This document shows positions 12,004 through 62,722 of a DNA stretch of 64,000 bases, one piece after another. The first letter of the stretch is position 1. Each line of letters begins with the position of its first letter. This stretch comes from Natrialbaceae archaeon (GTDB lineage Archaea; Halobacteriota; Halobacteria; Halobacteriales; Natrialbaceae). The stretch spans positions 1 through 64,000 of the forward strand of contig PWMF01000155.1 of NCBI GenBank assembly GCA_003559215.1, given 5' to 3'. Below the pieces are notes generated by a model, which was not told the origin of the DNA, did no database searches, and saw nothing but the letters and a program-made list of their open reading frames with translations. The position numbers and the translations under genes were made by a program.

Positions 12004-12066
12004 CGTCGCGGCCTTCCGACACGTCGAAAACGGAGATCGGCTCGAGGACGCCGTCCATACGGTCTA

Positions 12067-12127
12067 CTGTGAGTCATTACCGGTGCAACCGCGACCGCCC
12101 TGCGGTTGCACCGGTAAATCGTCACAG
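12067..12127. repeat. 61-base inverted repeat between convergent genes
   Basis: A perfect 16-base arm (12077-12092, TTACCGGTGCAACCGC) is mirrored at 12102-12117 around a 9-base loop. Outside it, CTGTGA (12067-12072) pairs with TCACAG (12122-12127) across 4-base internal bulges. It lies between the ferredoxin stop and the 3' end of the broken aldehyde dehydrogenase, so a bidirectional terminator or mRNA-stabilising hairpin is plausible. No transposase or target-site duplication is visible. Confidence 0.8.
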
Positions 12128-12136
12128 CAAACCGTA

Positions 12137-13672
12137 TCAGTCGTCGCGGGTGAGGATGTCCGCGGAGAGCCCCTGGGCCATCTCGATGTCCTTGGAGTTG
12201 TTCATCGTCCAGGCGGTGCGCTCGGTGACGGCCTCGATGGCCTCTCGAGCGCTTGGGTAGCCGTTGCCCGACTTCTTGACGCCGCCGAACGGCAGCTGGA
12301 CCTCCGCACCGATGCAGGGCAGGTTCGCGTAGGCCAGGCCGATCTCGGCACGGTCCCGGAAGTAGTTGATCTGGCGGTAGTCCTCCGAGATGATCGCGCC
12401 CGCCAGCCCGTAGGGCGTGTCGTTGTGGATCTCGACGGCGTCCTCGATGTCGCCCGAGTACTCGAGCAGGGCGACGTGGGGGCCGAAACACTCCTCTTTC
12501 AGACAGCGCAGGTCGGTGTCGTACTCGATCTCGTACGCGAACGGCCCCACCCAGTGGCCGTCCTCGTGGCCGTCCGGAATCTCGTCGTCGTCGAGTTCGA
12601 AGCGATCGACGAGCACGTCGGCGCCCTCCTTGCGGGCGAGTTCGTTGTGTTTCTCGATCTTTTCGAGGTGTTCGGCCTCGATCGCCGGCCCCATGAAGGT
12701 GTCCTCCTCGAGGGGGTCGCCGACGGCGATATCCTCAGCGATCTCGACGAATCGCTCCTTGAACTCGTCGTAGACGTCCTCGTGGACGATCAGGCGCTAG
12801 CTCGAGACGCAGCGCTGGCCGGTCGTCTTGAAGCTCGACATGATCGCCGAGTGGACGGCGATGTCGAGGTCGGCCTCCTCGGTGACGATGATGCCGTTCT
12901 TGCCGCCCATCTCGCAGGCCGCGAGCTTGCCGGGCTCGCCGCCGACCTTGCTGGCGATCTCCTGGCCGACCTCCGCGGAGCCGGTAAAGAGGACGGTGTC
13001 GACGCGCTCGTCGTCGGTGATCGCGGCGCCGGCGTCACCGTACCCCTGGATCATGTTGAACACGCCCTCGGGAATCCCCGAATCTTCGAACATCTCGGCG
13101 ATGATCTGGCCGCACCACGGCGTCTGCTCGGCTGGCTTCCAGACGACCGTGTTCCCCTCGACCAGGGCGATCGCCATGTGCCAGAACGGGATCGCGACCG
13201 GGAAGTTCCACGGGGTGACACAGCCGATCACGCCCCTCGGTTTGCGGCGCATGTAGGCGTCCTTGTTCGCGACCTCGCTCGGCACGACGTCGCCGTGGGG
13301 GTGGCGGGCGTTGCCCGCCGCCCACTCGACCATGTGCCAGGCCTCCGTGACGTCGGCCTTGCCCTCGCTGATCTCCTTGCCACACTCCTGGCTGACGATC
13401 TCGCCGAGTTCCTGGTGGCGCTCCCGGAGCTCGTGGTAGATGTCCCAGAGGTACTCCGCGCGATCGATGTACGAGAGGGCGCGCCAGTCCTCGAAGGCCT
13501 CCTCGGCCGCCTCGAGGGCGGCGTCGACGTCGTCGGCGGTCCCGCGCTGGAACTCCGCCAGCGTTTCGCCCGTGGCTGGGTTTTCGCTCGCGAACGTCTC
13601 CGAACCGCTTCCGTCGGTCCACTCTCCCGCGATGTAATGCTGGTGCGGTTGCGTCCCGGTTTGCTGCGACAT
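12137..13672 (-). pseudogene. Delta-1-pyrroline-5-carboxylate/aldehyde dehydrogenase interrupted by an in-frame TAG
   Basis: An open 512-codon frame read from 13672 to 12137, broken once by a TAG at codon 292 (12797-12799). The first part (291 aa) has the NAD-binding VTPWNFPVAIP segment, general-base Glu254 in CEMGGKNG and nucleophile Cys288 in TGQRCVSS. The amber codon is four codons after that Cys. Beyond it the same frame continues as an intact C-terminal half (RLIVHEDVYDEFKERF ... GPHVALLEYS ... QLPFGGVKKSGNGYP). One base change (CAG or GAG to TAG) explains it. Divergence from proline dehydrogenase indicates the proline-to-glutamate pathway. A TATA-like element (13694-13704) still precedes the ATG. 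Readthrough or a sequence error is the alternative. Confidence 0.85.
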
Positions 13673-13693
13673 GGTTTGTACTCACACCCCGAG

Positions 13694-13786
13694 CCTATGT
13701 AAGCACCACCGATCATGGTCGGCCCCGTGCGGAGATGATTTCACCCACTACGAGAGAGAACGTATTGGTCGGGTGGTGGCTTATGT
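13694..13786. promoter_or_regulatory. Divergent promoter region of the proline-catabolism genes
   Basis: On the minus strand GCTTACATAGG (13694-13704) is about 27 bases before the dehydrogenase ATG. On the plus strand GGCTTATGTGG (about 13778-13788) is about 30 bases before the proline dehydrogenase ATG. Both are TATA-like and spaced for leaderless transcripts, so the promoters look undamaged although both genes are broken. Confidence 0.5.
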
Positions 13787-13811
13787 GGACCGTCTCGAGG
13801 AGTACGAACGA

Positions 13812-14647
13812 ATGATACCACCTATCGCGAGCAAGTTCGTCGCGGGTGAAACCCCTGCCGAGGTGCTCGAGCACGTTCGGACGCTCAACGAGCGCGAAGT
13901 CGCGGGAATTCTCAATCTGCTCGGCGAACACTACGACGACCCGTCTGACGCGGCGGCGGACACGAACGTCTACCTCGAGCTGATCGACGACATCGCGGAC
14001 ACAGGTCTCGACGCCTGTATCTCGGTGAAACCGTCCCAGATCGGTCTCGGCGTCGACGAGGAGACGTTCGAACGGACCTCATCGAGATCGGCGACTACGG
14101 CGCAAACAGGGACGTGTTCGTCTGGGTCGACATGGAAGATCACACGACGACCGACGCCACCCTCGACGCCTACGAGGCGCTCGTTCGCCGTCACGGGGGC
14201 GGAGTGGGACTCTGTCTCCAGGCGAACCTCGAGCGCACCCGCGAGGACCTCGAGCGTCTCGCGGACGCCCCCGGCAAGATCCGGCTGGTCAAAGGTGCCT
14301 ACGACGAACCCGAGGCGATCGCCTACACCGACAAGGACCGGGTCGACGACGTCTACCGGGATCTGCTCGAGTACATGTTCGAGTCGTTCGACGACGGGAT
14401 CGCGATCGGGAGCCACGATCCGAACGTCATCGCTCACGCACGGGAGCTGCATCGAGCGCACGGGACGCCCTACGAGATCCAGATGCTGATGGGCGTTCGA
14501 ACCGACGCCCAGTACGAACTGGCCGCACGCGGGGTCGACGTCTATCAGTACATTCCCTACGGATCGAAGTGGTTCTCCTACTTCTATCGGCGGGTTCGCG
14601 AGCGCAAGGAGAACCTGGTGTTCGCGCTGCGGGCGATCCTGAACTGA
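13812..14647 (+). pseudogene. Proline dehydrogenase, frameshifted
   Basis: The N-terminal part (MIPPIASKFVAGETPAEVLEHV ... ACISVKPSQIGLGVDEETFER) and the C-terminal part (VFVWVDMEDHTTTDATLDAY ... IRLVKGAYDEPEA ... DVYQYIPYGSKWFSYFYRRVRERKENL) are both typical of FAD-dependent proline dehydrogenase but lie in different frames. The switch is at about 14074-14078: GAACGGACCTCATCGAG would read ER-N-LIEIG with one added A (GAACGGAACCTC). Repaired, it would be about 278 aa, the normal archaeal size. Unrepaired, the first frame runs on with nonsense to 14489. An in-frame GTG at 13785 is an alternative start. Confidence 0.85.
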
Positions 14648-14739
14648 GTCGAACGAACAGCTCCCGTTCGCGTTGCTCGAGCGGAGACGGTGCCGAAGAC
14701 GACGGCTACAGCCGTGGCCGAGTCCGACTACCGCCGGGC

Positions 14740-15462
14740 CTACGGATCCAGTAGCTTCGATTCGGCCCTGCGCAGGTGCTCGAGCAGCGTCGATTTCGCG
14801 ATATCGAGGTCGTCCGCGAGCTCCCGGGTCGTGGTCTCTCGGGGCCACTCGTAGTACCCGGTCTCGCGAGCGTGTTCGAACACTTCGCGCTGGGCGGTCG
14901 TCAGCGCATCGAGACGCTGGGTGCGCGCCGAGCGGCCGGGCGCGTCCGCGGTCGTGATCGACGTCACGGTTACTTCGGCGCCGGCCGTCTCGCGGACGTC
15001 GTCCAGCGAGGTCTCGATACCGGATCGATCACCGGCGAAACACAGCTTCCACGTCTCGCTGCCGTCCTCGATGCGAACCGGTGCGCTGTGGACGAACCCG
15101 TTCTCGAGCAGGGTCGGACAGATCATCTCGGCGGGGTCGTACTCAAGGAAGAACTCGCTGACGACGTTTCCGGGCGTGTTTCGGGCACGTCCGAACCGTT
15201 CCTGCAGTTCGAACACCTCGCCCGAGTGCTCGGAGTCACGGATCGCGTCCAGCAGTCCTTCGACCTCCCCGGACGTGTCCCCGAAGGCCGTAAACAGTCC
15301 CTTGACCGTGTTCGGTCTCTCCTCGTCGGTTTTTGGCGAGTTGTAGACCGCGTGAGCGAGCACGCCGCCCCCCGTCCGATCGGTCGCCTCGATGGCCCAG
15401 CAGTTCGGATGCCACAGATCGAGCGTCAATCGAACGCTCGACAGCTCGCCGTCCAGACTCAT
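14740..15462 (-). CDS. HTH_10 (bacterio-opsin-activator-like) regulator, probable proline-catabolism regulator
   Basis: A 240-residue protein. The N-terminal about 170 residues form a haloarchaeal sensory domain rich in Trp/Cys (LTLDLWHPNCWAIEAT; MICPTLLENGFVHSAPVRI). The C-terminus is a canonical HTH_10 (LTTAQREVFEHARETGYYEWPRETTTRELADDLDIAKSTLLEHLRRAESKLL). Its stop is 92 bases from the proline dehydrogenase stop (convergent). It is intact, unlike its two presumed targets. The regulatory link is inferred from position only. Confidence 0.85.
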   Translation of the reverse strand: MSLDGELSSVRLTLDLWHPNCWAIEATDRTGGGVLAHAVYNSPKTDEERPNTVKGLFTAFGDTSGEVEGLLDAIRDSEHSGEVFELQERFGRARNTPGNVVSEFFLEYDPAEMICPTLLENGFVHSAPVRIEDGSETWKLCFAGDRSGIETSLDDVRETAGAEVTVTSITTADAPGRSARTQRLDALTTAQREVFEHARETGYYEWPRETTTRELADDLDIAKSTLLEHLRRAESKLLDP

Positions 15463-44480: not shown

Positions 44481-44828
44481 TTCAGCAGTAGCGAGTGACA
44501 TCTTCCTCGCGGTAAACGGCGGGATTCTCTCGCTGTCTAAAGATAGCTTTCTTCGTTCGGGCTCAGTTCGACTCTGACTCACCGTGTTCGTTGCGTGCAG
44601 GTGCGAGTGGAACGGCGCAAGTCGGAGAAGCGTACGCCGAGCGAAGCGAGGCGTTTCACCGACGGCGAGCCCCGCCGGCGAGCCGTCGGCCTTTTTTCAT
44701 CGAAGTTTTTTACCAGAGGCATCGGCTGCCGCCTTCGGCGTCAGCCTCAACCCCTGGCAAAAACTCCGCTGTACTAAACACGAGCTTCACGCGGTGTGCT
44801 GAGTACGGAACCCTGCTACCATCTCTGG
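44481..44828. other. Gene-free stretch with hairpin and U-tract structures
   Basis: No credible coding frame: short frames here are Arg/Ser-rich and unconserved-looking. The stretch holds a perfect 7-base stem (CCGACGG 44659-44665, CCGTCGG 44683-44689) followed by six T's (44692-44697). A second T-run follows at about 44705-44710, then a GCC-TTCG-GGC-like mini-hairpin at about 44732-44745. On the plus strand the first is an intrinsic-terminator-like hairpin for the aldo/keto reductase. The rest could be a structured RNA or decayed repeat. Confidence 0.45.
44659..44697 (+). terminator. Hairpin plus T-run downstream of the aldo/keto reductase
   Basis: Stem CCGACGG / CCGTCGG with a 17-base GC-rich loop, then CC and six T's. 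It is about 180 bases after the reductase stop, so either a distal terminator or the end of a non-coding transcript. Confidence 0.45.
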
Positions 44829-45563
44829 TCACTGAAATTCCGAGTCGGCGAGCACGTCGTTGAGGTCGTCCCGGATCCGCTCGCCGAGTTCCCGGTTCGG
44901 CGCCGTGGTGACGATCCGGTTCTCCTGGACGCTCGAGCCGTCCCGGATGAGCATCCGGACGTTCCCGCCGTCATCGGCGCGGGTAACTTTCGCCCGGAGT
45001 CCGGACTGAGATCCCTTCCCACCCGCGTCGATCGGTCCCGGAATAACCTTCTTGACGTGGGGGTGGCCCGCGACGGTCTGGATCGCGCGCATTCCGGTTC
45101 GGCCGCCGATCAGCGTCGAGTGGCTGCCGCCGATCTTCTCGGCCGGCGGGGTTTCGACGACCTCGAGTGCACGGTTTCCGCGGCGCTCGAGGGTCGCCTC
45201 CACGGGGTCGTCAGCGTCGGCGTCGACGCGATAGAAGGGGTACTGGACCTCGCGTCGAACGGCCCGGATCACCTCCCGATTCCCGCTCGCGTACACCTCC
45301 TCGGGGCGCTTGCGGCGGATCTCGTCGGCGAGCAGGCCGGTGAAGTTCCGTAGCTCGACGACCTCGTTCTCGCCTTCCTCGGGTGTGGTGGTGACGGTCG
45401 TCCGCGCGATGACGGGATCGTCGTCGTCCTCGCCGGCCAGCATCGTCAGCGTCGCCCGCTCGCGGGTAGCCTCGAGCACGATCGCCTTGGTGTTTTCTGC
45501 CCGGCAGACCAGACAGAAGTCTCCGGGTTTCTCGAGGGCCGATCCGCAGTGGCGACACTCCAT
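44829..45563 (-). CDS. DUF2103-like archaeal metal-binding protein
   Basis: A 244-residue protein. The N-terminal zinc ribbon is MECRHCGSALEKPGDFCLVCRAEN with two CxxC pairs. The core conserved block is SHSTLIGGRTGMRAIQTVAGHPHVKKVIPGPIDAGGKGSQSGLRAKVTR (about residues 146-195), matching DUF2103 archaeal proteins. That Ser/His/Lys-rich block looks like a nucleic-acid or anion site. Function unknown; no partner gene is obvious apart from the zinc-ribbon membrane gene just upstream. Confidence 0.8.
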   Translation of the reverse strand: MECRHCGSALEKPGDFCLVCRAENTKAIVLEATRERATLTMLAGEDDDDPVIARTTVTTTPEEGENEVVELRNFTGLLADEIRRKRPEEVYASGNREVIRAVRREVQYPFYRVDADADDPVEATLERRGNRALEVVETPPAEKIGGSHSTLIGGRTGMRAIQTVAGHPHVKKVIPGPIDAGGKGSQSGLRAKVTRADDGGNVRMLIRDGSSVQENRIVTTAPNRELGERIRDDLNDVLADSEFQ

Positions 45564-45611
45564 AGTGGCGATTCGGGAGACCGGTGTAAAACGCCCCTGT
45601 TTTTCCTTGGA

Positions 45612-46040
45612 CTACGCGGAGCCCATCTCGTCGGCGAGTTTCGTCCCGCAGGCCCGACAGTACCGCGATCCCTCGGCGACGACGACCTCGCAGTTCGGAC
45701 ACGCGAGCCCGGAGCCGTCGACGGACGCGGTTTCGACGTCGGTGCCACAGGAGGGACAGTACGCGGCGTCCTCTGAGACGTCGGCGCCGCAGTCCGGACA
45801 GCGCGAACGCCCTTCCCAGAGCACCTGCCGGCGCGAGCGGGAGATGTAGTTGTACGCTCCCCAGAGGACGTTCCCGATCCCCATCGTCCACCAGATCGTC
45901 AGGATCGCAACCAGGATGTGGGAGGCGACGGAGCCGAACTCCCGATCGACCATCACGACCCGGTCCCGATCCTCGTCCTCGATTTTCCATCCCTGTGCCA
46001 CGAGTTCGTCGATCTCCCGCTGCAGACGTTCGCTTCGCAT
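45612..46040 (-). CDS. Membrane-anchored double zinc-ribbon protein
   Basis: A 142-residue protein. The N-terminus (MRSERLQREIDELVAQGWKIEDE) is a short coil plus a DRVVMVDREFG segment. One hydrophobic helix (SHILVAILTIWWTMGIGNVLWGAYN, about 40-64) follows. Two zinc ribbons close the protein: CPDCGADVSEDAAYCPSCG and CPNCEVVVAEGSRYCRACG. The topology suggests zinc ribbons facing the cytoplasm. Same strand as the DUF2103-like gene, 48 bases upstream of it. Function unknown. Confidence 0.8.
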   Translation of the reverse strand: MRSERLQREIDELVAQGWKIEDEDRDRVVMVDREFGSVASHILVAILTIWWTMGIGNVLWGAYNYISRSRRQVLWEGRSRCPDCGADVSEDAAYCPSCGTDVETASVDGSGLACPNCEVVVAEGSRYCRACGTKLADEMGSA

Positions 46041-46121
46041 GCTCGAGGTAAGAGCCGAGCGGGCAAAAGCCTGTTAGGCGTAATCAGCGTGTATCTTCGG
46101 CGGGGACACCGGCGAGACGAG

Positions 46122-47492
46122 TCAGCCCAGGTCGACGGGATCGACCTTCAGGAACTCCCGTGCGACGACCGTCGCGTACGACCCCTTCGGCAGGGCAAAG
46201 GAGAGCGTCAGCGGATCGCGCTCGAGGCCCAGGTCCGTCCGAACCAGGATCGCCCGACGGGTCCCCGTCGAGTGGAACTCCCCGGGCAGGTCGAAGTCGC
46301 CGGGCTCGAGCTCCAGCTCCTCGAGCACGTCGCGTTCGATCTCACCCTGCTCGCCGCCGGCCAGTTCGGTCTCGATACCGACCAGCGGTGCGGTGACGAA
46401 CGCTCGGCCGCGCTCACAGTGGCGAGTGACGGAGTCGACGCGGCGCTCGTCGACGCGTTGGAGGCGGTCCGTGTCGGGTAGCTCGAGCCCTTCCGGAGCG
46501 TTCGAGTCCGAAAAGCAGACGACGTCGCCCGCGACGGGTCGGTCGAACGCGAGCCCGCGCTCGAGGCGTTCGCTTAGCATCCGGTTGAACGCGTAGGACT
46601 GAGCCGCGTGGACGAACAGCCGCTGGAGGTTCGAGGGGACGCGCTCGAGGGCCGCTCGGAAGTCCTCGGGACCGGGTTCCTCGTCGCGCTCGGCCAGCGC
46701 ATGACACATCGAGCGCTCGTAGCGCAGTCGGTTAGGGATGCGCTCGAGGGCCGCCTGCCAGTCGCGGGTTTCTTCCACGAAGGCGCGAGCCTCCTGCGTT
46801 CCCTCGGGCTCCGCGTCGGTCGGGTTTCCAAGGTAGGCCATCACCGCTCCCTCCCAGTTCCCGCGGACGATCTCGAGACCCACCTTGTGGGTGACCGGAC
46901 GTCGACTGCCGAACCGTTGCTGACCGAAGAAGTTGGGGACGCCGATCGGCGTTGCGCCGCTTCCGCCACCCGCGCTCGCGTCCCGTCGGCCCTCGAGGCC
47001 GCCGAACTCCTGGAGCTCGTCGGTGATCGTCTCGGCGTTTGCCGGGCGCTCCGGATCGCCGACGACGATTTCGAAGGCGTTGCCGGCCAGGTCGCCGAAC
47101 TCGAGGTTCCGTCCCGCCCGACCCAGCACCTCGAGGTCGGCGCCGTCGACGTCGGGCAGGTCCTCGGGTTCGGCGCCGTACACCGAGAACAGCTGGGTGG
47201 TCACGGCGTACTTGTCCTTCGTGCCGGCCCAGTTGACTCGTTCCCGGGAGATTCCGAGCGCGTCGGACACCCGGGAGGCGAAGTCGTTAGTGTCCCACCC
47301 CCGAAGCGTCGCCCGGAAGACGAGGTGCGGGTAGGCGTCGGTCGAGGACTCGAGGGGCTCGGTCTCGAAGCGCTCGAGTTCGCGAACCCGGAACTGGTCG
47401 TCCTCGTCGCGGAGGCGGCCGCCGACGCCGTCGGCGTCGCTGACGTAGTGGTCGATCCCGACGGCCTGCTCTGTAGGGTGGGCTGGACGCAT
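46122..47492 (-). CDS. truD: tRNA pseudouridine(13) synthase TruD
   Basis: A 456-residue protein. The catalytic Asp is in [19 protein letters not shown] (about residues 84-102), and the conserved [18 protein letters not shown] (about 191-208) carries TruD's signature. A TRUD insertion domain follows, and the closing [22 protein letters not shown] is diagnostic. It makes pseudouridine in tRNA (position 13 in bacteria). Start at [19 protein letters not shown]. Confidence 0.93.
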
Positions 47493-47574
47493 GCTCGTTG
47501 CCGACGATTCGGCCGCCGCGGGTAAATCGGTTCGTTCTCGGGGCCGAGGATTCGGCTATCGGTGCCGCGGGCCG

Positions 47575-47703
47575 CTACAGCGTTACGCCCCACTCGTGGC
47601 CGCAGCCCGGACACTCGAAGTCTGCCGACACGTCGCCGCTGGCGTAGTTCTTCCCGACTAGTTCTCCCAACCCGTCGCTGCACTCCGGACACCGAGCGTT
47701 CAT
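47575..47703 (-). CDS. Zinc-ribbon microprotein (42 aa)
   Basis: A 43-codon frame: MNARCPECSDGLGELVGKNYASGDV, then SADFECPGCGHEWGVTL, then stop. Two CPxC pairs (Cys5, Cys8 and a CPGC near residue 31) and an HEW end form a minimal zinc ribbon like those of transcription factors. It lies in the gap upstream of truD on the same strand. It is probably a real haloarchaeal microprotein; function unknown. Confidence 0.68.
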   Translation of the reverse strand: MNARCPECSDGLGELVGKNYASGDVSADFECPGCGHEWGVTL

Positions 47704-47756
47704 TTCGGTCCTCACTACCAGATCGGCGGCGGTTAATGCCACACTTCTTTATTTTA

Positions 47757-47769
47757 GATTATATATAAT
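47757..47769 (-). promoter_or_regulatory. AT-rich palindromic element upstream of the 42-aa zinc ribbon
   Basis: ATTATATATAAT, a self-complementary 12-mer inside the AT-rich 47747-47772 stretch, stands out in a GC-rich neighbourhood. It is about 55 bases before the microprotein ATG, while a closer TTAA (about 47732-47735) may be the actual TATA. It could be a TATA box plus upstream activator site. Confidence 0.4.
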
Positions 47770-47780
47770 AGGAGACGCAA

Positions 47781-48452
47781 CTAATGGTCGCTGTTCGACC
47801 GTTCGGCGACGCCGTCGACGAGTTCCCGCACGTACTCGAGTTCGTCCTCGAGCACCGTGTGGCCGACCCCCTCATAGATCCGCTTTTCGACGTCGGCCTC
47901 GAGCTCCTCGAACACCCGTGCCGTTTCCTCGACGCGTTCGACGGGGATGTGGGGGTCCTGATCCCCGCAGCCGACGAACACCGGAGTACCGTCCATCGAG
48001 CCGTCGTACTCTCTGGGGGTCCCCTCGGGGCCGATCAGCCCGCCGCTGAGTGCGACGACCCCGCCGTAGCGGTCGGCGTTCCGGGCGGCGTACTCGGTCG
48101 CCAGACACCCTCCCTGCGAGAAGCCGAGCAGCACCGTCCGCTCGAGAGGAACGCATCCGTCACCGTCGTCGGTCGTCGTCTCCTCGAGGACGTCCTCGAG
48201 CAGCCCGAGCGCCGAGTCGAGGTAGGGCTGGTTCGACTCGAGGGCTGCGAGAAACGAGTTCGGATACCAGGTCCCGCGGGCCGCCTGCGGCGCGAGGTAG
48301 GCGACGTCGTCGCGATCGATCTCCTCGGCGAGCCCGAGCATGCCTCGCGCCCGGGCGCCGCGGCCGTGGACAAGGATCACCGCCGCTGCAGCCTCGTCGA
48401 GGCTAACACCGGCTCGTTCGATCTGCTGTCCGCTATGTGGGCCGTCGGTCAT
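47781..48452 (-). CDS. Phospholipase/carboxylesterase-family alpha/beta hydrolase
   Basis: A 223-residue alpha/beta hydrolase. VILVHGRGARARGMLGLAEEI (oxyanion-hole HGRG), nucleophile Ser in LLGFSQGGCLATEYAAR (about residue 113), Asp in VGCGDQDPHIPVERVEET (about 166) and His in YEGVGHTVLEDEL (about 198) complete the triad. It is a small esterase like bacterial carboxylesterase/lysophospholipase YpfH; the substrate is unknown. It is downstream of pth2 on the same strand (60-base gap). Confidence 0.88.
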   Translation of the reverse strand: MTDGPHSGQQIERAGVSLDEAAAAVILVHGRGARARGMLGLAEEIDRDDVAYLAPQAARGTWYPNSFLAALESNQPYLDSALGLLEDVLEETTTDDGDGCVPLERTVLLGFSQGGCLATEYAARNADRYGGVVALSGGLIGPEGTPREYDGSMDGTPVFVGCGDQDPHIPVERVEETARVFEELEADVEKRIYEGVGHTVLEDELEYVRELVDGVAERSNSDH

Positions 48453-48512
48453 ACCCGATCGACGGGCGCCAGCAGAAAAGGGGTTTGCGAGCCGGCGAAG
48501 CGGACGAGCGAG

Positions 48513-48851
48513 CTAAAACAGCGAGAGTTCGCCGGTGACCCGATCGACGACGTCCTCGTCGCCCGGCCCGACCGCCAGCGCGGTGACGGTGCCCGACTCG
48601 AGCTGGGTGTGGCCCGCGTCGCGGATCACAGCGTTGGGCAGGCCACGGCTCTCCGCGATTTCGGAGAGCTCGTGGAGTTGCCGTTCGCTTTCGCCCTTCA
48701 GGACAACCTTCTTTTGCCCGCCCGATTTCCACTGATCGCGGGTTCGCTTGTCGGCTTTCTCGTAGGCCGACAGCGAGGCGTGTGCGACCTGCGCGGCGAG
48801 CTTTCCCTGTCCCATGCCGATGTCGGTGCGGGCGACGATGGCCTGTTTCAT
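48513..48851 (-). CDS. pth2: Peptidyl-tRNA hydrolase, archaeal type (Pth2)
   Basis: A 112-residue protein of normal Pth2 length. [34 protein letters not shown] is the diagnostic N-terminus, with [17 protein letters not shown] and [19 protein letters not shown] following. It hydrolyses peptidyl-tRNA dropped from stalled ribosomes. The ATG of MKQAIV is the family start. It sits at the head of a small minus-strand group with the esterase gene. Confidence 0.95.
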
Positions 48852-48940
48852 GCTCGAGCGAACGGGGCCGATCCCTATAGCCGCGGCGAAAGCCCCGGCG
48901 CATCCGAACCGTTTTGGTCCGCTGCTCTGACGGTCGAACC

Positions 48941-49510
48941 GTGACGAAGCCATCGACGCCGCTTGCCGACCCCGACGGCTACTTCGCTCGTACGGACGCC
49001 TTCTCGCTCGGGCGAGCATCCGTGCTCGTCTTCGCGTACTGGGTCGGCTCGCTCGCCGTCGATCTCGGGTGGTGGCTCGCGGGCGACCTCGCCGGCGATC
49101 CCGTGACGGCGTTCTCGGCGCTCCAGCACCTCGAGGCGACACTGCTGTACTGGGTCGTTCCGACGGTGGTCCTCTACGGGCTCGTGCTCGCGGTCGGTGC
49201 AGACGGCGAACCGGCCGAGACACTGGCGCTCGCGGCCTGGGGGCTCGTCCCGCTGCTGGCCGGGATGGCTATGTTCAACCTCGCGCTCGCCGCGCTCGCG
49301 ACCCTCGGTGTCGATCCGGGCGCGATTCCGTCGGATCCCGACGTCTGGCTGTTCGTCCCGCTCGCGCTCCTGGCCTGCGGCTGGGCCGCCTACGTCTGGC
49401 GCGGCGGCCTCGCGGTCGGCTTCGGCCTCGAGCGTTCGACCGCCACCCCGACCGCGCTGCTGGCGGCCGGGGTCTGTGCGGTCATGCTCGTTTCCCCGAT
49501 CCTCGGTTGA
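48941..49510 (+). CDS. Yip1-domain membrane protein
   Basis: A 189-residue protein. The cytoplasmic N-terminus is [36 protein letters not shown], a Yip1-family opening (DPDxFF-like). About five membrane helices follow, including [19 protein letters not shown] and [27 protein letters not shown] start. Yip1-like proteins are often linked to membrane trafficking or envelope proteases; the archaeal role is unknown. Confidence 0.78.
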
Positions 49511-49541
49511 GGGGTTCGGATCGGCCCGATTCCAAGTCGAA

Positions 49542-49551
49542 CCGTTTACAC
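49542..49551 (+). promoter_or_regulatory. TATA-like element for dCTP deaminase
   Basis: CCGTTTACAC, centred about 28 bases before the ATG at 49575 in an otherwise GC-rich gap; spacing fits a leaderless start. Confidence 0.45.
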
Positions 49552-49574
49552 CTCCGCCGTTCGACTCGTCGGGT

Positions 49575-50177
49575 ATGATCCTCTCCGACGCCGATATTCT
49601 GAAGCGCCTCGAGGACGGCGACCTCGCTATCGACCCCCTCGACGATCCGGAACTGCAGATCCAGCCCGCGAGCGTCGACCTGCGGCTGGGTCGGGAGTTC
49701 CTCGAGTTCCAGCGGACGAACATCTCTTGTATCCACCCCAACGCCGAACACGAAGTCGACGAGTACGTCACCGAGACCGTCGTCGACGACGGCGACGACT
49801 TCATCCTCCATCCCGGGGACTTCGTGCTGGGAACGACCCACGAGCGCGTGGAGATCCCCGCCGACCTGATCGCCCACGTCGAGGGGCGCTCTTCCTTGGG
49901 ACGGCTTGCTGTGGTAGTGCATGCCACAGCAGGACTTTGCGACCCCGGGTATCGCGGCCAGATCACCCTCGAGCTGTCGAACCTCGGTACCGCACCCGTC
50001 GCGCTCACGCCGGGGATGCGGATCTCTCAGCTCACGTTTACCGAACTCAAAACGGAGGCGGAGCGGCCCTACGGCAGCGATCGGGGCTCGAAGTACCAGG
50101 ACCAGGCCGGCCCGCAGGCCTCGCGCATCCAGAGCGACGACGAGTTCGGCGGCGACCAGCTCGAGCGCGAGGACTGA
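49575..50177 (+). CDS. dcd: dCTP deaminase
   Basis: A 200-residue protein of the dUTPase/dCTP deaminase fold: [40 protein letters not shown], and the active-site block [36 protein letters not shown] (about residues 99-134), where the Glu in LELSN is the catalytic general base. [10 protein letters not shown] agrees. It converts dCTP to dUTP for thymidylate synthesis; the bifunctional dUTP-forming/hydrolysing variety cannot be excluded. Its stop abuts the convergent small membrane gene. Confidence 0.93.
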
Positions 50178-50531
50178 TCACACGCGATCGGAGACCAGCA
50201 CCGCGAGAACGATCCCGACGGCCGCGCCCGCAGCGACCGACGAGCTGAGATCGAAGTGCAGCAGGTACGCCGACAGCGCGGTTCCGATCACGAAGCCGAT
50301 GCTGAACCCGGCGAACCCCCCGGTTAGCCGGCGCTGGCGGGCCGGAGTCGACTCGGCGAGCCCGATTGCGACGCTCGCGACCGCAACGGCGCCGGCCAGC
50401 GCGCCGACGGGAAGGCCGACGAGCAGTCCCACTCCGATCAGCTCGCGAGCGAGCTCGCCGACTGCGACGCTGACGATAAAAAACGTCGCGACGCCGGAGC
50501 CGATCACGAGCCCGATGGATTGGTCGGTCAT
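50178..50531 (-). CDS. Small multi-pass membrane protein
   Basis: A 117-residue protein with four hydrophobic segments (IGLVIGSGVATFFIVSVAVGELA; LLVGLPVGALAGAVAVASVAIGLA; GGFAGFSIGFVIGTALSAYLL; AAGAAVGIVLAVLVS). No charged catalytic residues stand out. Convergent with dcd, its stop beginning one base after the dcd stop. Function unknown. Confidence 0.75.
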   Translation of the reverse strand: MTDQSIGLVIGSGVATFFIVSVAVGELARELIGVGLLVGLPVGALAGAVAVASVAIGLAESTPARQRRLTGGFAGFSIGFVIGTALSAYLLHFDLSSSVAAGAAVGIVLAVLVSDRV

Positions 50532-50652
50532 GGAGTGAGGGTTTCACCGACGACGGGATAAATCGTCCGCGACGCGGCGGGCTCGAGGGCGTCCGCGCGC
50601 TCCCGTCGCCGCGAGCGATGCCGATTTGTACGTCCGAGTGCTACGGTGTGGC

Positions 50653-51078
50653 ATGGGGGAGCAAATCCTCGTCCCCGTCGACCGATCCGACCACTCCGAC
50701 CGGGCCCTCGAGTACGCCGTCGGCTCGTTTCCTGACGCCGATTTCACCGTCTTGCACGTTATCAACCCCTCGAGTTACTGGTACGGAAACACGGACGGTT
50801 ACATCTACAGCGACGAGACTGAGGCGTGGCTCCGGCGACAGGGCGAGGCGGTACTCGAGGACGCGCAACGGACGGCCGCGGAGTACGACCGCGAGATCCG
50901 AACGGAACTGAAGCTGGGATCGCCGGCGCGGACCATAACGGAGTACGCGACCGCCCACGGGATCGATCACATCGTCCTCGGCAGTCACGGTCGGGACGGC
51001 GTCTCGCGGATCCTGCTCGGCAGCGTGGCAGAAACCGTCGCCCGGCGCGCACCCGTTCCGGTGACGATCGTTCGCTGA
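50653..51078 (+). CDS. Universal stress protein (UspA family)
   Basis: A 141-residue UspA domain. ILVPVDRSDHSDRALEYAVGSFPDADFTVLHVI is the N-terminal strand-helix-strand. The C-terminal nucleotide loop HIVLGSHGRDGVSRILLGSVAETVARRAPVPVTIVR has the ATP-binding GxxGxxxxxLGSV pattern (G-2x-G-9x-G-S/T). It probably binds ATP and acts in stress response. Start at the ATG of MGEQILVPVD. Confidence 0.92.
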   Translation: MGEQILVPVDRSDHSDRALEYAVGSFPDADFTVLHVINPSSYWYGNTDGYIYSDETEAWLRRQGEAVLEDAQRTAAEYDREIRTELKLGSPARTITEYATAHGIDHIVLGSHGRDGVSRILLGSVAETVARRAPVPVTIVR

Positions 51079-51129
51079 TCGCCGGGACCCAGGAGTTATT
51101 TCCGCGGCGCGCGTCTCCTCACCCACGAA

Positions 51130-52029
51130 ATGCAATTCGTCGAAGAGATCGTCGTCGACGAGTTCCTGCCGACCTTTCGCTCGCTGCTGGCCGGCGAGCT
51201 CCGGGAGCGGGGACTCACGCAGAGCGAGGTCGCGGCGGTGCTCGGCATCAGCCAGAGCGCCGTCTCGAAGTACGCCCACGGGGACGTGACCGTCAACGAC
51301 CGTATCGCCGACGACGAGCGGGTCACCGCCCTCGTCGACGAGCTCGGCGAGGGGCTCGCCAGCGGCGATATGGTGCCGGTGCAGGCGCTGATCGAGACCG
51401 AGGTACTGATCCGCGAACTCGAGGGCGGGAGCGACCTGCTCGCCCAGCTCCACGAGGATGCCGTCCCCGAGCTGGCCGACCACGGCTCGAGCTTTCGGGT
51501 CCACGACCCCGAGAGCGAGCTCCGAACCAGCGAGCGGGTACTGTCCTCGCTGCGACGCGGGCTGCGCGTCCTCGAGAACGCGAGCGGGTTCGCGACCCTG
51601 ATCCCCGCGGTCGGCTCGAACCTCGTCGCCTGTACGCCCGATGCCGAGGACGTCGACGACGTCGCCGGCGTTCCGGGACGGATCTTCGACGTGAAGGGAC
51701 GGACGACGGTACCGACGAGCCCGGAGTTCGGCGTCTCCGAGCACGTCGCGACGGTGTTGCTCTCGGCGCGTCGCCACGGCTCCGACGCCTCGGCGGCGAT
51801 CAACGTCGCCTACGACTCCGATCTGCTCGAGGAACTCGCCGCACAGGGTCACGTCACCGCCGAGTTCGACGAGTCGGGCGACGTCGACGAGAGCGTCGGC
51901 GCGGCCATCGACGACCAGCCCGACGCGACGGTGCTCTACCAGACCGGAGGGATGGGGATCGAACCGCTGATCTACGTGCTCGGTCCCGACGCGGAGTCGG
52001 TCGCCGGCACCGTCCGAGCGCTCCTCTAA
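51130..52029 (+). CDS. thiR: HTH-ThiN regulator (ThiR-like, thiamine-phosphate sensing)
   Basis: A 299-residue fusion. Residues about 1-60 form an HTH (LTQSEVAAVLGISQSAVSKYAHGDVTVN). Residues about 120-295 form a ThiN domain (SSLRRGLRVLENASGFATLIPAVGSNLVACTPDAEDVDDVAGVPGRIF ... QTGGMGIEPLIYVLGPDA). In archaea such fusions are ThiR, a thiamine-phosphate-responsive repressor of thiamine genes. The Thi4 gene lies 3.4 kb downstream, a plausible target. The stop is one base from the methyltransferase start. Confidence 0.87.
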   Translation: MQFVEEIVVDEFLPTFRSLLAGELRERGLTQSEVAAVLGISQSAVSKYAHGDVTVNDRIADDERVTALVDELGEGLASGDMVPVQALIETEVLIRELEGGSDLLAQLHEDAVPELADHGSSFRVHDPESELRTSERVLSSLRRGLRVLENASGFATLIPAVGSNLVACTPDAEDVDDVAGVPGRIFDVKGRTTVPTSPEFGVSEHVATVLLSARRHGSDASAAINVAYDSDLLEELAAQGHVTAEFDESGDVDESVGAAIDDQPDATVLYQTGGMGIEPLIYVLGPDAESVAGTVRALL

Positions 52030-52030
52030 C

Positions 52031-52711
52031 ATGTCGGCGAGCACGAGCGGCGAGACCGCACAGGAGTTCTACGGTCGCTGGGCGCGCCTCTACGATCTGA
52101 TCGCGCGCCGCACGCCCGGCATTCCGGCACTCCGTCGGCGGGCCGCGGCAGCCTGTCGGCTCGAGCGCGGCGACACCGTCGTCGAGATGGGCTGTGGAAC
52201 GGGCGCGAACCTCCCCTACCTGCGCGAGCAGGTTGGTCCCCAGGGAACCGTGATCGGGGTCGACTTCACCGGACCGGTACTCGATCGAGCCCGGGAGCTG
52301 ACGGCCGAGTACGACAACGTCCACGTCGCCCGCGGCGACGCGACCCAACCGCCCGTAGACGAGGACGTCGACGCCGTCCTCGCGACGTTCGTCGTCGGCA
52401 TGCTCGAGGATCCCGCGGGCGCCGTCGACGACTGGTGCGACCTCGTCGGCCCTGGCGGTCACGTCGTGCTGGCGAACGCCGCCCGGAGCGACGAGTGGTA
52501 CGCCCCGCCGGTCAACGCCGTCTTTCGGGCGATCGTTGTCCTCTCGACGCCGCCGACGACGAAGCTTCGCTACGAGAACGATCCACACCTGCGCCTCGAC
52601 GCACGGATCGACGAGGCTCACAGTAGGCTCCGGGAGCGCTCCCGGGCGATCGCCGACGAGAGCCACGTCTTCGGAGTCGTTCGACTGACGGGCGGCAGAA
52701 TCGGACCCTAA
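52031..52711 (+). CDS. Class I SAM-dependent methyltransferase
   Basis: A 226-residue protein. FYGRWARLYDLIARRTPGIPALRRRAAAACRL precedes motif I, VVEMGCGTGANLPYLREQVG (about residues 53-72), then TVIGVDFTGPVLDRARELT and ARGDATQPPVDEDVDAVLATFVVGML. It belongs to the UbiE/Coq5-like group and may act on a quinone or lipid; the substrate is unknown. It starts one base after the ThiR stop codon, probably in the same operon. Its 3' end overlaps the convergent thioesterase by four bases. Confidence 0.87.
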   Translation: MSASTSGETAQEFYGRWARLYDLIARRTPGIPALRRRAAAACRLERGDTVVEMGCGTGANLPYLREQVGPQGTVIGVDFTGPVLDRARELTAEYDNVHVARGDATQPPVDEDVDAVLATFVVGMLEDPAGAVDDWCDLVGPGGHVVLANAARSDEWYAPPVNAVFRAIVVLSTPPTTKLRYENDPHLRLDARIDEAHSRLRERSRAIADESHVFGVVRLTGGRIGP

Positions 52712-53118
52712 CTCGGGGCCTCGAGACCCTCGTACTCGCGGATCCGCTCGCGAACCGTCTCGTCGATCGGCGTCGGGGCCCCGGTTTCGGCGTCGACGTG
52801 AACCATCACGGTCTCGGCGGTCGCGGCGACCTCGCCGTCGACCCGGATCTCGTAGGCCATGGTACAGCTCGTCTCGCCCAGCTCCGTTACCCACAGCGCG
52901 ACGACGGGCTCGTCGCCGTACTCGATCGGCCGCCGGTAGGAGAGTTCGAGGTTCGCGATCACGAACGACAGCTCCCGCAGGCGCTGGTCGAGTACCGCCT
53001 CGATGTAGTCGATTCGGACCGACTCGAGGTAGCTTGCATAGACGGCGTGGTTGACGTGATTCAGTGGATCGAGATCCCGAAACCGAACCGGAACGGTTCT
53101 GGTAAACTCCTCACTCAT
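52708..53118 (-). CDS. Hotdog-fold acyl-CoA thioesterase (4HBT family)
   Basis: A 136-residue hotdog protein. MSEEFTRTVPVRFRDLDPLNHVNHAVYASYLESVRIDYIE carries the 4HBT active-site Asp (FRDLDPLNHVNH, about residues 13-23). AYEIRVDGEVAATAETVMVHVDAETG is the closing strand pair. It hydrolyses an acyl-CoA; chain preference unknown. I start at MSEEFTR, since the upstream frame is Arg-rich and unlike coding. It is convergent with the methyltransferase (four-base overlap). Confidence 0.88.
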   Translation of the reverse strand: MSEEFTRTVPVRFRDLDPLNHVNHAVYASYLESVRIDYIEAVLDQRLRELSFVIANLELSYRRPIEYGDEPVVALWVTELGETSCTMAYEIRVDGEVAATAETVMVHVDAETGAPTPIDETVRERIREYEGLEAPS

Positions 53119-53192
53119 TGTAGGTTTTCCAGAACGCTCGCACAAAAGTAGCCTCCGATTCCGGGCCACCGTGATTCTCGGCGGCTCATCCA

Positions 53193-53957
53193 CTACCGAC
53201 CGTACAGCTCTGCGTGATCGGGACAGAACTCGGGCTCGCGGAGTTGGGCCGCGATCAGCTCCTCGTGGTAGTGGGCGTTGAACAGCCGACACTTCTCGTG
53301 GTCGCAGAATGCCTCACCCGTCTCGAGGAAGTGGTACGCCTGCAGGACGTACCCCTTCAGCGCGTCGGTCGTCCGCGGATCGTCCTCGATCAGAAAGTCG
53401 CCCTCCACGCGGTTCTCGAGGACCTCTCGGGGCGGCGCGTCGCCCGAAAGCAGCGAGTGGCGCTGTTTTTCTTTGTAGTACGCCTCCGGCTTGGCAGGTG
53501 CCTCGTAGAGTCCCGGCACCGACACCAGCGCCGGCTGGCCGAGAACGTTCACTCGCTTGTGCCAGCGCCCGTCGTGGTCCCCCCAGGTACCGATCGCTCG
53601 ATCGAGGATCGGGACGTGGAAGGTCTCGAGCCCACGCTCCTCCGCGGGCAGCGCGCTGTTGAGGGCTCGCTGTACCTGCCGGCCGTCGTAGAGCACCCCA
53701 CCTTCGCGTTCGGGGTGCTCGAGGGCGCGCTCCTCGTACCGGATCGTCCCCAGCATCGTGTTCCCCGTCTCGGGGTCGTACGGCGAAGGGACCCGCGCCT
53801 CGGCGAACGACTCGGTGAGGTCGTCGGTCCGATGCACGTCGAGGAAGCGATCCCGGACCGCGACCGACGCGTCGATCCGGGGCTCGAGCCAATCTGCGAT
53901 TCCTTCCGCATCGACGACCGTCGTCGGCGCCCGATAGCACAGGATCTGCTCGACCAT
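53193..53957 (-). CDS. DUF6775-like putative metallopeptidase-related protein
   Basis: A 254-residue protein. IADWLEPRIDASVAVRDRFLDVHRTDDLTESFAEARVPSPYDPETGNTMLGTIRYEER is the N-terminal part. The C-terminus is His/Cys-rich: ETGEAFCDHEKCRLFNAHYHEELIAAQLREPEFCPDHAELYG (about residues 213-254), with HYHEE and Cys pairs likely to bind zinc. I associate it with the haloarchaeal DUF6775 group with moderate confidence. No HExxH is seen, so peptidase activity is doubtful. Divergent from the 100-aa gene at 54046. Confidence 0.65.
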   Translation of the reverse strand: MVEQILCYRAPTTVVDAEGIADWLEPRIDASVAVRDRFLDVHRTDDLTESFAEARVPSPYDPETGNTMLGTIRYEERALEHPEREGGVLYDGRQVQRALNSALPAEERGLETFHVPILDRAIGTWGDHDGRWHKRVNVLGQPALVSVPGLYEAPAKPEAYYKEKQRHSLLSGDAPPREVLENRVEGDFLIEDDPRTTDALKGYVLQAYHFLETGEAFCDHEKCRLFNAHYHEELIAAQLREPEFCPDHAELYGR

Positions 53958-54012
53958 GTATTACCTAGTCGTACCACAGGGTGAATCAGTTACGGTCCCG
54001 CAGTCGCCGATC

Positions 54013-54020
54013 GATTTATG
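54013..54020 (+). promoter_or_regulatory. TATA-like element for the 100-aa hypothetical protein
   Basis: GATTTATG centred about 29 bases before the ATG at 54046; spacing fits a leaderless transcript. Confidence 0.45.
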
Positions 54021-54045
54021 TCGTCTCTCGCTCACGTTCGTAGAT

Positions 54046-54348
54046 ATGTTTCCACCGCCGGTTTCGAACGAATCGATCCTCACCGACGAGCTGAACCCCC
54101 TCACGCGGGCCTACCACGAGGCCGTCGTCTACGACGACCGCGAGGGTGACGACCCCCTCTACGAGGGACCGATCGTCGTCCACGCCAACGGCTGGCTCGA
54201 ACTCGAGGAGAACCGGCTACTCTCGCCGAGCGCGGTGCATCACGTCGATATCTACGACGACGAGCGACCGCCCGTGGAGGACCGGGACCGTAACGGCCAC
54301 GATACGGGGGACGACGACTGTCGAACCGGCCGGTTCAGCCCCAGGTAG
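54046..54348 (+). CDS. Hypothetical acidic protein
   Basis: A 100-residue protein. ESILTDELNPLTRAYHEAVVYDDREGDDPLYEGPIVVHANGWLELEENRLLSPSAVHHVDIYDDER reads as a compact beta-rich fold. The last about 30 residues are charged and probably disordered. I do not recognise a family. The codon usage and acidic composition match its neighbours, and a TATA-like element precedes it, so it is probably real. Confidence 0.65.
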   Translation: MFPPPVSNESILTDELNPLTRAYHEAVVYDDREGDDPLYEGPIVVHANGWLELEENRLLSPSAVHHVDIYDDERPPVEDRDRNGHDTGDDDCRTGRFSPR

Positions 54349-54380
54349 CCGTCTCGAGCAGCCGCACTCGGTCTCCCGAT

Positions 54381-55283
54381 TCAGCCGTCCAGAAACGACG
54401 GTTCGCGGGACGGCTCCTGCTCCGCCTCCCGCCAGGAGTGTTCGGGCTTCCAGCCCAGTTCCTCGCGGGCTTTCGCCGTCGTAAACGCCGACTCCTCGCC
54501 CTCGAGCCCGCAGTCCTCGGGGAGGTCGCCGTAGACGGCTTCGATCGTCGGTGCCGTGGGTCGGCCGAGGTAGTTCTCCGCCGCGACCGCGAGGTAGGCC
54601 TCGTGGCCCTCTCGGTCGGCCTCGAGCGCGGCCTCGACCAGCGAGACCAGATCGCGCACGTCGACGTACGACCAGAAGTTGCCGCTCCCCTCGTCACCGG
54701 GCTCGGCCGTTTCCGGGTCGAGCGCCTCCCTGACGCGGGCGAGCTGCCGGCTCCCGGGGTAGCTCACCCAGGCGGGGCGCAGCGACGTTACCGGCACGCC
54801 GAACGCTCGGACCGTGCGCTCGGCGATCACCTCGCCGACGAGCTTCGAGGTGCCGTAGGGGTCCTCCGGTCGCTGCGGGTGGTCCTCGTCGATCGGCAGG
54901 TAGTCCGGCAGAGAAGGGGTCGCCGCAAAGGGCATCCCGTAAGTGCTCTCGCTCGAGGTCCAGACCACGTCCGCGCCCGCCCGTCCGGCGGCCTCGAGGA
55001 CGTGGTAAGTGCTCAGGACGTTCGTCTCGAAGGTCTCGCCGCCCGCGCGGATCCCCATCGCGGGGATCCCGGCGCAGTGGACGACGGCGTCGGGATCGGC
55101 CCGACCGATCGTCTCCCAAGCGACCCCCTGGTCGGTCAGATCCCCCGCGAGAAAGGTGGCGTTGTCGCGCTCGCCGGGCGGGCGCTCGAGGTCGAGACCG
55201 AGCACCTCGTGGCCCGCGCTCGCGAGGCTCTCGACGATCCAGCTCCCGATTCCGCCGGTCGCACCGGTGACGGCGACGTGCAT
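54381..55283 (-). CDS. NAD-dependent epimerase/dehydratase
   Basis: A 300-residue extended short-chain dehydrogenase. Rossmann motif MHVAVTGATGGIGSWIVESLASAG (1-24), Ser in WTSSESTYGM, and the YxxxK pair in DPYGTSKLVGEVIAERTVRAFGVPVTSLRPAWVSYPG (about residues 151-187). C-terminal substrate part: FTTAKAREELGWKPEHSWRE. It probably acts on a nucleotide sugar; neighbouring envelope genes (flippase at 56923) are consistent but not proof. Confidence 0.9.
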   Translation of the reverse strand: MHVAVTGATGGIGSWIVESLASAGHEVLGLDLERPPGERDNATFLAGDLTDQGVAWETIGRADPDAVVHCAGIPAMGIRAGGETFETNVLSTYHVLEAAGRAGADVVWTSSESTYGMPFAATPSLPDYLPIDEDHPQRPEDPYGTSKLVGEVIAERTVRAFGVPVTSLRPAWVSYPGSRQLARVREALDPETAEPGDEGSGNFWSYVDVRDLVSLVEAALEADREGHEAYLAVAAENYLGRPTAPTIEAVYGDLPEDCGLEGEESAFTTAKAREELGWKPEHSWREAEQEPSREPSFLDG

Positions 55284-55414
55284 GCTCGAGTCGACTCGGC
55301 GGCGGCGAAAAACGGTGTGGGTTCCGGACGGGCCAGACGGACTGCTGGGAGTCGGTTCCGACGCAACCACAATCCGGCTAGGGTTGCGCCGAGAGAACGG
55401 CACGGCGCTCCGTC

Positions 55415-56344
55415 TCAGTCGTCGGCTGGCGTCGCCCGCGAGGTGACGTCGACGGGATCGGCGTCGACGCCGAGTTCGTCGATGGCCTCCTGGGCCGCGC
55501 GCTTGCCCGAGACAAGCATGGCGCCGAACGTCGGCCCCATCCGCGGGAGGCCGTAGGTCGTCGCGGTGGCCATCCCCGTCGCGATCAGCCCGTCGTGGAC
55601 GAGGCCGGTGTGTTCGACGACGGCGTCCTCGCTCTTGCCGACCCACATCGAGTCGTGACCGGGCGAGTCGTGGCCGGGCGCGCCGTAGCTGTCGTCGTCG
55701 GTCTGGTCCATCCCCGTAGCACTGGCCTCGGCGTCGCCGATGCCTGGCGCGTCGAGGACGCCGCGCTCGTCGAGTTTCTTGACGGCCATCGCGTCGTGGC
55801 CCGTCGCGTCGATGACGAGGTCGGCCTCCACGGCGATCGGATCGACGCAGGTGATCTCCCGAGGGAGGGCGTGGACCGGCGTCCAGTTCATCACGATCCC
55901 CGAGACCTTGTGGTCCTCGCGGATGACGATGTCCGTGAACTCGGTCATGTTCTGCATCTTCGCGCCCGCGTCGCAGGCGGCCTTGATCAGCCCCGAGCAG
56001 GCCTCGGGACCGTTCGCGACGTACAGCCCCTCGCTGTCCTCCGATTGCTTGTAGGAGACCTCGAGTTCCTCGAGGATGTTCTGTGCGGGGTCGCGGACGG
56101 TGACCTTGTTCATCAGGAAGCCGCCGAGCCAGAACCCGCCGCCGAGGTAGTTGTTCTTCTCGACGACCATCGTCTTCACGCCGCGCTCGGAGAGCTCCTT
56201 GGCCGCGGTCAGCCCCGAGGGGCCGCCGCCGACGATGATGACGTCCGAATCCGAGAAGTCCATGAACTCCTCGGTCCACTCCTGGCCGATCGCGCGGGTT
56301 ACATCCGCTTCGCCGACGTCGCTGAACTGGTCGAACTCGCTCAT
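55415..56344 (-). CDS. thi4: Thiamine thiazole synthase Thi4 (Cys-donor type)
   Basis: A 309-residue protein. FAD/NAD motif [41 protein letters not shown] (about residues 35-76). The sulfur-donor site is Cys166 in [25 protein letters not shown], where Cys-type (suicide, yeast-like) Thi4 has its reactive Cys; His-type catalytic enzymes of methanogens lack it. [17 protein letters not shown] closes the fold. It makes the thiazole part of thiamine from NAD, glycine and protein sulfur, one turnover per chain. Possible regulation by ThiR (51130-52029). Confidence 0.92.
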
Positions 56345-56448
56345 ACAACTAGGTGGTATCAGTGGGTAGTCAAAAGTGTGTCGCGACGCGTCGGATGGTT
56401 GACTTGAATCCGTACCCTCAAGACCCGCGGCTGCAAACGACCGAATCG

Positions 56449-56838
56449 ATGTACCGCCGCGCGTTCCTGGCCGTCGCCGCCTCGCTGTCGGTGTCGGGCT
56501 GTCTCGAGTACTTCACCGAGGACGCAGAGGAGATCACCGAACCCGCCGACGTCGAGATCGTCTGGGACGACCTCGTGCGTGACGACCCCGGCACGGAGGA
56601 CGAACGCGTCTACGTCTGGGGCGTCGTCAGGAACGCGGGCGAGCGAACGCTGTCGTACGTCGAGCTCCGAGTGACGTTCTTCGACGACGAGGGCGAGGAG
56701 CTCGAGAGCGTCATCGAGAACGTCGAAGAGAACGTCGCCGAGGGCGAGGAGTGGCCGTTCGACGCGGAGTTTCCCCACTTCGGCGAGGAGGCTGCCGAGG
56801 TCGACAGCTACGAACTCGAGCCGGCGACGGGTGTGTAA
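56449..56838 (+). CDS. Lipoprotein with FxLYD-like beta domain
   Basis: A 129-residue protein. [22 protein letters not shown] is a Tat-like/lipobox signal (VSGC; Cys18 anchor). Residues 35-129 ([39 protein letters not shown]... VDSYELEP) read as an FxLYD-type immunoglobulin-like domain common in haloarchaeal lipoproteins. Exported and membrane-anchored; function unknown. Divergent from thi4. Confidence 0.78.
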
Positions 56839-56922
56839 CGTGTCCGAGCCGACCGCGGGAGCGGACCGACGACTACACGCGATGCCAGCGGAACGTCTCG
56901 ACCACCGACAACCCACGTTGCC

Positions 56923-58443: not shown

Positions 58444-58477
58444 CGTCGGGCGATCCGCTGGCCGTCAGTTCCGGCTC

Positions 58478-59926: not shown

Positions 59927-60147
59927 ATCGACGCGTTTACGCTCGGATTCCGGCTCTACCACGGCGCTTTCGGTGCGTTCTCGCTCCGGGGGAGAAAAGG
60001 GCTCGACTCCCCGGTTCCGTTGCCGGCTCTCGAGTCCCTCGAGTCGCGCCCGCCGCGGCGGACCCGACCGCACGGACCTCACGCACGCGCGAGCGTAACG
60101 CCCGCGTAACGCACGCACACCCGCGCTGTCTGCCGGTTTTGCCGAAA

Positions 60148-60157: not shown

Positions 60158-60180
60158 AGACTCAGTCGTACCGAGCGACC

Positions 60181-62714: not shown

Positions 62715-62722
62715 GCTCCGTC

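Follow-up and report, generated by a model that had tools for sequence, protein, structure and literature searches.

Has a haloarchaeon of the genus Natronococcus recently lost the ability to convert proline to glutamate, or does its draft genome only make it appear so? The question is raised by a 64,000-nucleotide stretch of this draft (the window, part of contig C184), in which the genes for proline dehydrogenase (ProDH) and for a probable pyrroline-5-carboxylate (P5C) dehydrogenase each carry one interrupting lesion, next to an intact gene for an HTH_10 regulator. The original prediction took this as a recent loss of both enzymes under relaxed selection. We put at roughly 55% the probability that the stop in the dehydrogenase gene is a base error of the draft assembly and not a real loss; the ProDH frameshift could be either an error or real, and in the living cell the dehydrogenase would probably be intact. 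A double gene loss cannot be claimed with confidence; the pattern found across relatives is firmer, and is the part worth following.

The proline-degradation locus and its two lesions

The draft comprises 3.94 Mb on 222 contigs, with a completeness of 96.74 and a contamination of 6.25. Eight Natronococcus relatives have genomes of 4.3-5.3 Mb as compared to 3.9 Mb here, and some of the genome content may be missing from the draft. The locus itself is a haloarchaeal proline-degradation locus, with P5C dehydrogenase and ProDH reading off one divergent promoter region and the HTH_10 regulator alongside. Its features are:

12137..13672, minus strand: aldehyde dehydrogenase (ALDH), probable P5C dehydrogenase, with one in-frame TAG (PF00171; the relatives' orthologues are open)
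12797..12799, minus strand: the in-frame TAG, codon 292 of 511 (column 295 on the G002 reference), from frame reading
13697..13719, minus strand: dehydrogenase promoter element, consisting of the 14-base motif ACCATGATCGGTGG, 3 bases and TTACAT, conserved in the alignment
13763..13785, plus strand: ProDH-side promoter element, resembling the dehydrogenase-side one, recognised by eye in the alignment
13812..14647, plus strand: ProDH with one frameshift near 14075 and its stop at 14645-14647 (tblastn; PF01619 on the downstream part)
14740..15462, minus strand: HTH_10 regulator, intact (PF04967; open frame)

We compared the locus, frame by frame, with four genomes, namely the Natronococcus genomes G002 (locus L014), G003 (L013) and G005, and Halobiforma haloterrestris (L016). 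All four contain the same three genes with every frame open; the ProDH alignments of G003 and G005 contain one stop, their open frames being 281 residues long. The dehydrogenase frame of the window (13672-12137, minus strand) is open apart from the single TAG and is 97% identical to the G002 orthologue over its full length, on both sides of the stop. With the stop read as X, PF00171 matches residues 18-485 with 474 bits. Judged from the dehydrogenase, two named relatives come closest, Natronococcus amylolyticus DSM 10524 and Natronococcus sp. A-GB7, each 97% identical. As for ProDH, tblastn with the G002 and G003 orthologues gives two high-scoring segments in two frames that join at 14075, and PF01619 scores 78.6 bits on the downstream part (cut-off 27), as compared to 103.9 bits for the G002 orthologue. 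The regulator matches PF04967 at residues 187-238 (74.1 bits, cut-off 23.1) and is 96% identical to its G002 orthologue, and the intergenic promoter region aligns with those of the relatives. The description from which we started is therefore accurate as regards the two adjacent divergent genes with lesions of different kinds, a nonsense codon and a frameshift, and the preserved regulator and promoter region.

The assignment of the ALDH as P5C dehydrogenase is probable and comes from its linkage to ProDH: of 80 named loci, 17 have a near full-length ProDH match in the vicinity of the dehydrogenase (four of these 17 alignments hold stops; open frames were inspected for two, L013 and L048). The protein resembles the P5C dehydrogenase equivalog TIGR01237 and the PutA models in belonging to the ALDH superfamily and in aligning over most of its length, but falls below the cut-off of TIGR01237 (306.5 bits against 659.65). 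Models for other aldehydes outscore the P5C models (GucD 398, BADH 356), and no NCBIfam equivalog cut-off is reached among the best 25 models listed. ProDH is of the monofunctional archaeal/Thermus type: it passes the Pfam cut-off, and of the NCBIfam models the intact orthologue matches NF045947 best, although at 205 bits against a cut-off of 500.

Second copies, which the original prediction suggested looking for, were found for only one of the two enzymes. The genome contains two further full-length ProDH genes, on contigs C128 and C207. We rejected the idea that these paralogues are contaminants, because their surroundings align with G002 (92-94% for C128 and 87-92% for C207); moreover, each of the eight other Natronococcus genomes has a ProDH region with which that of C128 aligns. 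On the other hand, no second close P5C dehydrogenase was found in the genome, the only other ALDH found being 34% identical. Since two full-length ProDH paralogues remain, an inability to break down proline would have to come from the dehydrogenase stop by itself. Of the two enzymes it is ProDH at this locus that is dispensable, given the two paralogues in this genome and its remnants or absence here in relatives.

Disrupted genes elsewhere in the draft and the origin of the lesions

Other genes of the same draft bear on the origin of the dehydrogenase stop. We compared 182 gene models with intact relatives (114 in C184 and C128 against G002, and 68 in C192 against G003), which flagged 7 lines in C184, 11 in C128 and 13 models in C192. 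We discarded stops and frame changes that precede the likely start of the gene, as well as changes that G003 also has; three doubtful ones proved likewise to be upstream. By our judgement of the flagged models, six of the 182 are disrupted: the dehydrogenase, ProDH, two C128 genes and two C192 genes. The C128 genes, both with an in-frame TAG, encode a PAS histidine kinase (C128:68314) and a conserved protein of 244 residues without a Pfam or NCBIfam match (C128:63173). Those on C192 are a short gene that is frameshifted near C192:113,470 and a DUF359 gene with an in-frame TAA (C192:95017). The DUF359 family is single-copy in all nine Natronococcus genomes, and only the copy of this draft has a stop. 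Its best NCBIfam match is the GTP-dependent dephospho-CoA kinase, below cut-off (110 against 300 bits), and disruption of the dephospho-CoA kinase gene in Thermococcus kodakarensis is reported to cause CoA auxotrophy (PMC6650551). Loss of this gene should prevent unaided growth of the cell, and its stop is therefore very probably false; that is, the assembly very probably contains false stops. Assembly error, which the original prediction had named as the alternative, is strengthened accordingly by the state of this sole dephospho-CoA kinase family gene.

Further comparisons lean modestly the same way. In the reciprocal test, in which 186 models of this genome were used against G002 and G003, one frameshift was judged real, in G002 (6/182 versus 1/186, Fisher p 0.065). 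Three of the four internal stops, the one in the dehydrogenase included, belong to the G:C-to-T:A class, for which about 20% would be expected (p 0.026). The same class is in excess among the non-synonymous changes on this branch (111/963 versus 59/745, p 0.014) and not among the synonymous ones (182/2847 versus 139/2234, p 0.82).

Relaxed selection had been proposed as the common cause of the two lesions. We measured the ratio of non-synonymous to synonymous rates (dN/dS) against G002 and compared it with pairs of genomes that exclude the window copy. The dehydrogenase has a value of 0.053 (other pairs 0.039-0.146), and downstream of the stop one of 0.079, as compared to 0.097 for G003-G002. 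ProDH has a value of 0.187 (full-length pairs 0.194-0.298) and the regulator one of 0.128 (0.081-0.153 among genomes having ProDH). Both enzyme genes thus evolve no faster than in intact pairs; at the level of the sequence neither gives a sign of relaxed selection, and a lesion, if real, must be very recent. An old relaxation, with the locus long non-functional, is very improbable in view of these low ratios, which hold for either gene before and after its lesion, and of the single lesion per gene.

Several observations weigh against a base error. A lesion too young to mark the sequence yields the same dN/dS. The dehydrogenase gene does not appear visibly error-rich either: among 85 sequences compared it has, besides the TAG, one one-off residue at otherwise invariant columns, and its total of two is exceeded by 3 of the 84 others. 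The G:C-to-T:A signals, though consistent with base errors, are modest, and the overall ratio of non-synonymous to synonymous changes is alike on this branch and on that of G002 (0.338 and 0.333). The count of six disrupted genes depends on our personal reading of the flagged models. Finally, in the Natronococcus genome G007 the dehydrogenase at C1:905785-907321 (L097) is frameshifted at about residue 338, and both genes may really decay in the genus; a second dehydrogenase copy of G007, on C3, is uninterrupted.

If both lesions were real and recent, proline-to-glutamate breakdown through this locus would just have been lost, with the regulator and promoters not yet decayed. This would explain why the lesions fall in adjoining genes of one pathway, and it agrees with the lack of a second close P5C dehydrogenase in the genome, with the erosion or absence of this ProDH in several relatives and with the state of G007, whose frameshifted dehydrogenase has no credible adjacent ProDH. 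In the 44 kb that the window has in common with G002 only the two proline genes were judged broken, the other flags being upstream of a start codon or in open frames lacking a gene-like codon-position G+C pattern; for the same reason we rejected a high general error rate in the window. However, the draft contains other broken genes, the sole dephospho-CoA kinase family gene among them, and one or more close copies of the dehydrogenase are uninterrupted in all eight of the other Natronococcus genomes that were searched. The coincidence is also less striking than had been assumed, since six lesions placed at random over 182 genes give a neighbouring pair in 15.5% of draws. We therefore regard a real double loss as unlikely, though deserving serious attention.

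A stop that is real beside an erroneous ProDH frameshift, or a consensus of strains in which broken and intact alleles coexist, appears a good deal less probable still. A mixed consensus would fit the contamination estimate and the fragmentation of the draft, but the relatives compared lose ProDH, whereas their dehydrogenase is broken in G007 only. Recoding, in which TAG would be read as pyrrolysine or by a suppressor tRNA, or the frameshift would be programmed, so that full proteins are made, would account for the match to the G002 orthologue on both sides of the stop. We give it hardly any credence: no pyrrolysyl-tRNA synthetase was found above cut-off (one weak match, 29.3 against 178.15 bits; suppressor tRNAs were not sought), and the TAG column is Glu in all 84 other sequences. 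A base error in the dehydrogenase gene is the reading that we prefer.

The regulator, its element and ProDH in relatives

Comparison with sister strains, which had also been proposed as a check, gave a divided answer: the TAG recurs in none of the 84 other sequences, while several relatives with the regulator in place have an eroded ProDH or none that could be found. ProDH is full length at the locus in G002, G003, G005, two Halobiforma and Halopiger goleimassiliensis. G004 and G008 retain a ProDH remnant next to an open HTH_10 gene, and in G007 no credible ProDH match was found between the dehydrogenase and the open HTH_10 gene. Three Natrialba species have only short ProDH remnants and keep HTH_10; the remnant is strong in Natrialba asiatica and weak in Natrialba aegyptia and Natrialba taiwanensis. 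In N. jeotgali and N. pandeyae neither ProDH nor HTH_10 was found in the stretch examined (for N. jeotgali about 200 bases upstream only), and G006 and G001, which by match positions carry the loci of these two, had no HTH_10 match anywhere at E 1e-70. Among the 30 of 41 HTH_10 matches that were inspected, three other genomes of the family, G105, G108 and G109, have a close HTH_10 and no dehydrogenase in the adjoining 1.5 kb examined; therefore, the gene trio is not universal.

By our count ProDH has been lost independently at this locus at least twice besides the window's case, and such losses with the regulator kept make it likelier that the frameshift in the window's ProDH is genuine. In the dehydrogenase tree, jeotgali groups with G007 (93%) and pandeyae with G004 (100%). 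The HTH_10 tree places G004 and G008 with Natrialba (L023, L024 and L026; 98%), in conflict with the dehydrogenase tree, where they join the other Natronococcus with only 72%. The number of independent losses is therefore uncertain; an exchange of the regulator segment is possible. Without a local ProDH the HTH_10 gene has a dN/dS of 0.028-0.079 in Natrialba and of 0.177-0.265 in G004, G007 and G008; the latter values lie above those of the ProDH-bearing genomes, and some relaxation is possible there. Some Natronococcus genomes have a further pair of dehydrogenase and ProDH genes, accompanied by an HTH_10 gene that has diverged (about 46% identical), at L121 (G001), L122 (G004) and L048 (N. 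pandeyae).

The promoter element tends to accompany the regulator. Among 13 dehydrogenase upstream regions chosen by hand for alignment, all contain ACCATGATCGGTGG exactly, six of them without a full-length ProDH. When the 80 named loci are considered, the motif is exact, starting 47 bases before the dehydrogenase start, in 7/7 loci with an orthologous HTH_10, in 1/60 loci where no HTH_10 turned up within 3.5 kb (the one, Halobiforma nitratireducens, does have ProDH) and in 0/13 loci with a divergent HTH_10. With up to two mismatches allowed, a control stretch inside the dehydrogenase gene was found in 0/80. Allowing three changes the counts to 7/7, 4/60 and 4/13, with 2/80 for the control stretch, and several of the divergent-HTH_10 loci have, by eye, a related sequence at a similar distance. 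The seven loci are mutually related and cannot count as independent of one another; better controls for the element are the losses in jeotgali and pandeyae, in which the best match shows five mismatches. In the draft, the 23-base pattern (ACCATGATCGGTGG, 3 bases and TTACAT) has one site genome-wide at up to 3 mismatches; with this single site, no shared operator was found upstream of the paralogous ProDH genes.

These observations suggest that the HTH_10 protein could control the dehydrogenase by binding to the element 47 bases before its start. In our reading the dehydrogenase is the target that the regulator keeps, and ProDH is an expendable partner. Tentatively, and somewhat short of even odds, we propose that in the Natrialbaceae the HTH_10 protein of this locus chiefly regulates P5C dehydrogenase, and not proline oxidation overall, through an element that outlives repeated ProDH losses and is lost with the regulator; the strain of the window would perhaps be at the very start of a further loss of this kind.

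A comparable set of genes is known in Haloferax volcanii, where a ProDH, HVO_1191 (fadM2/putA), likewise has near it an ALDH, HVO_1189 (aldH2), to which the role of P5C dehydrogenase is assigned; both are reported to be upregulated on alanine (PMC6801745). HVO_1190, we infer, is the HTH_10 gene. No paper in the literature searched names HVO_1190, and among the matches listed no title dealt with a regulator of the locus. Haloferax larsenii (L070) has the same three kinds of genes, with HTH_10 between the two enzymes, whereas here ProDH lies divergently beside the dehydrogenase, HTH_10 is beyond ProDH and both enzyme frames are interrupted. A survey of ten haloarchaeal genomes gives ProDH in seven and P5C dehydrogenase in one only (PMC3102087).

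Surroundings of the locus and meaning of the pattern

In the stretches compared, synteny of the window with G002, G003 and G005 stops near 44.5 kb, leaving positions 44500-64000 beyond it. Between a ferredoxin-like gene and the dehydrogenase lies an imperfect palindrome of about 81 bases (12057-12137), with 36-base arms that are 83% complementary. The G002 and G003 alignments break at this point, and the motif is missing from their compared stretches of the region. Further copies are located at C184:102675-102756 and C192:128533-128614. The palindrome is a member of a dispersed repeat, with 27 arm matches in the genome and matches in 9/9 Natronococcus genomes; a reversed control pattern gave none.

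If the locus did hold a double pseudogene, this would be a minor trait of the strain, and possibly an artefact. The stop in the DUF359 gene, which belongs to CoA synthesis, is a warning for any loss-of-function claim made from this draft. The relatives, for their part, form a natural series of genomes in which an enzyme is intact, frameshifted, eroded or gone with the regulator still there, and the comparison offers, for proline/P5C metabolism, an archaeal regulator and operator that can be tested as a pair.

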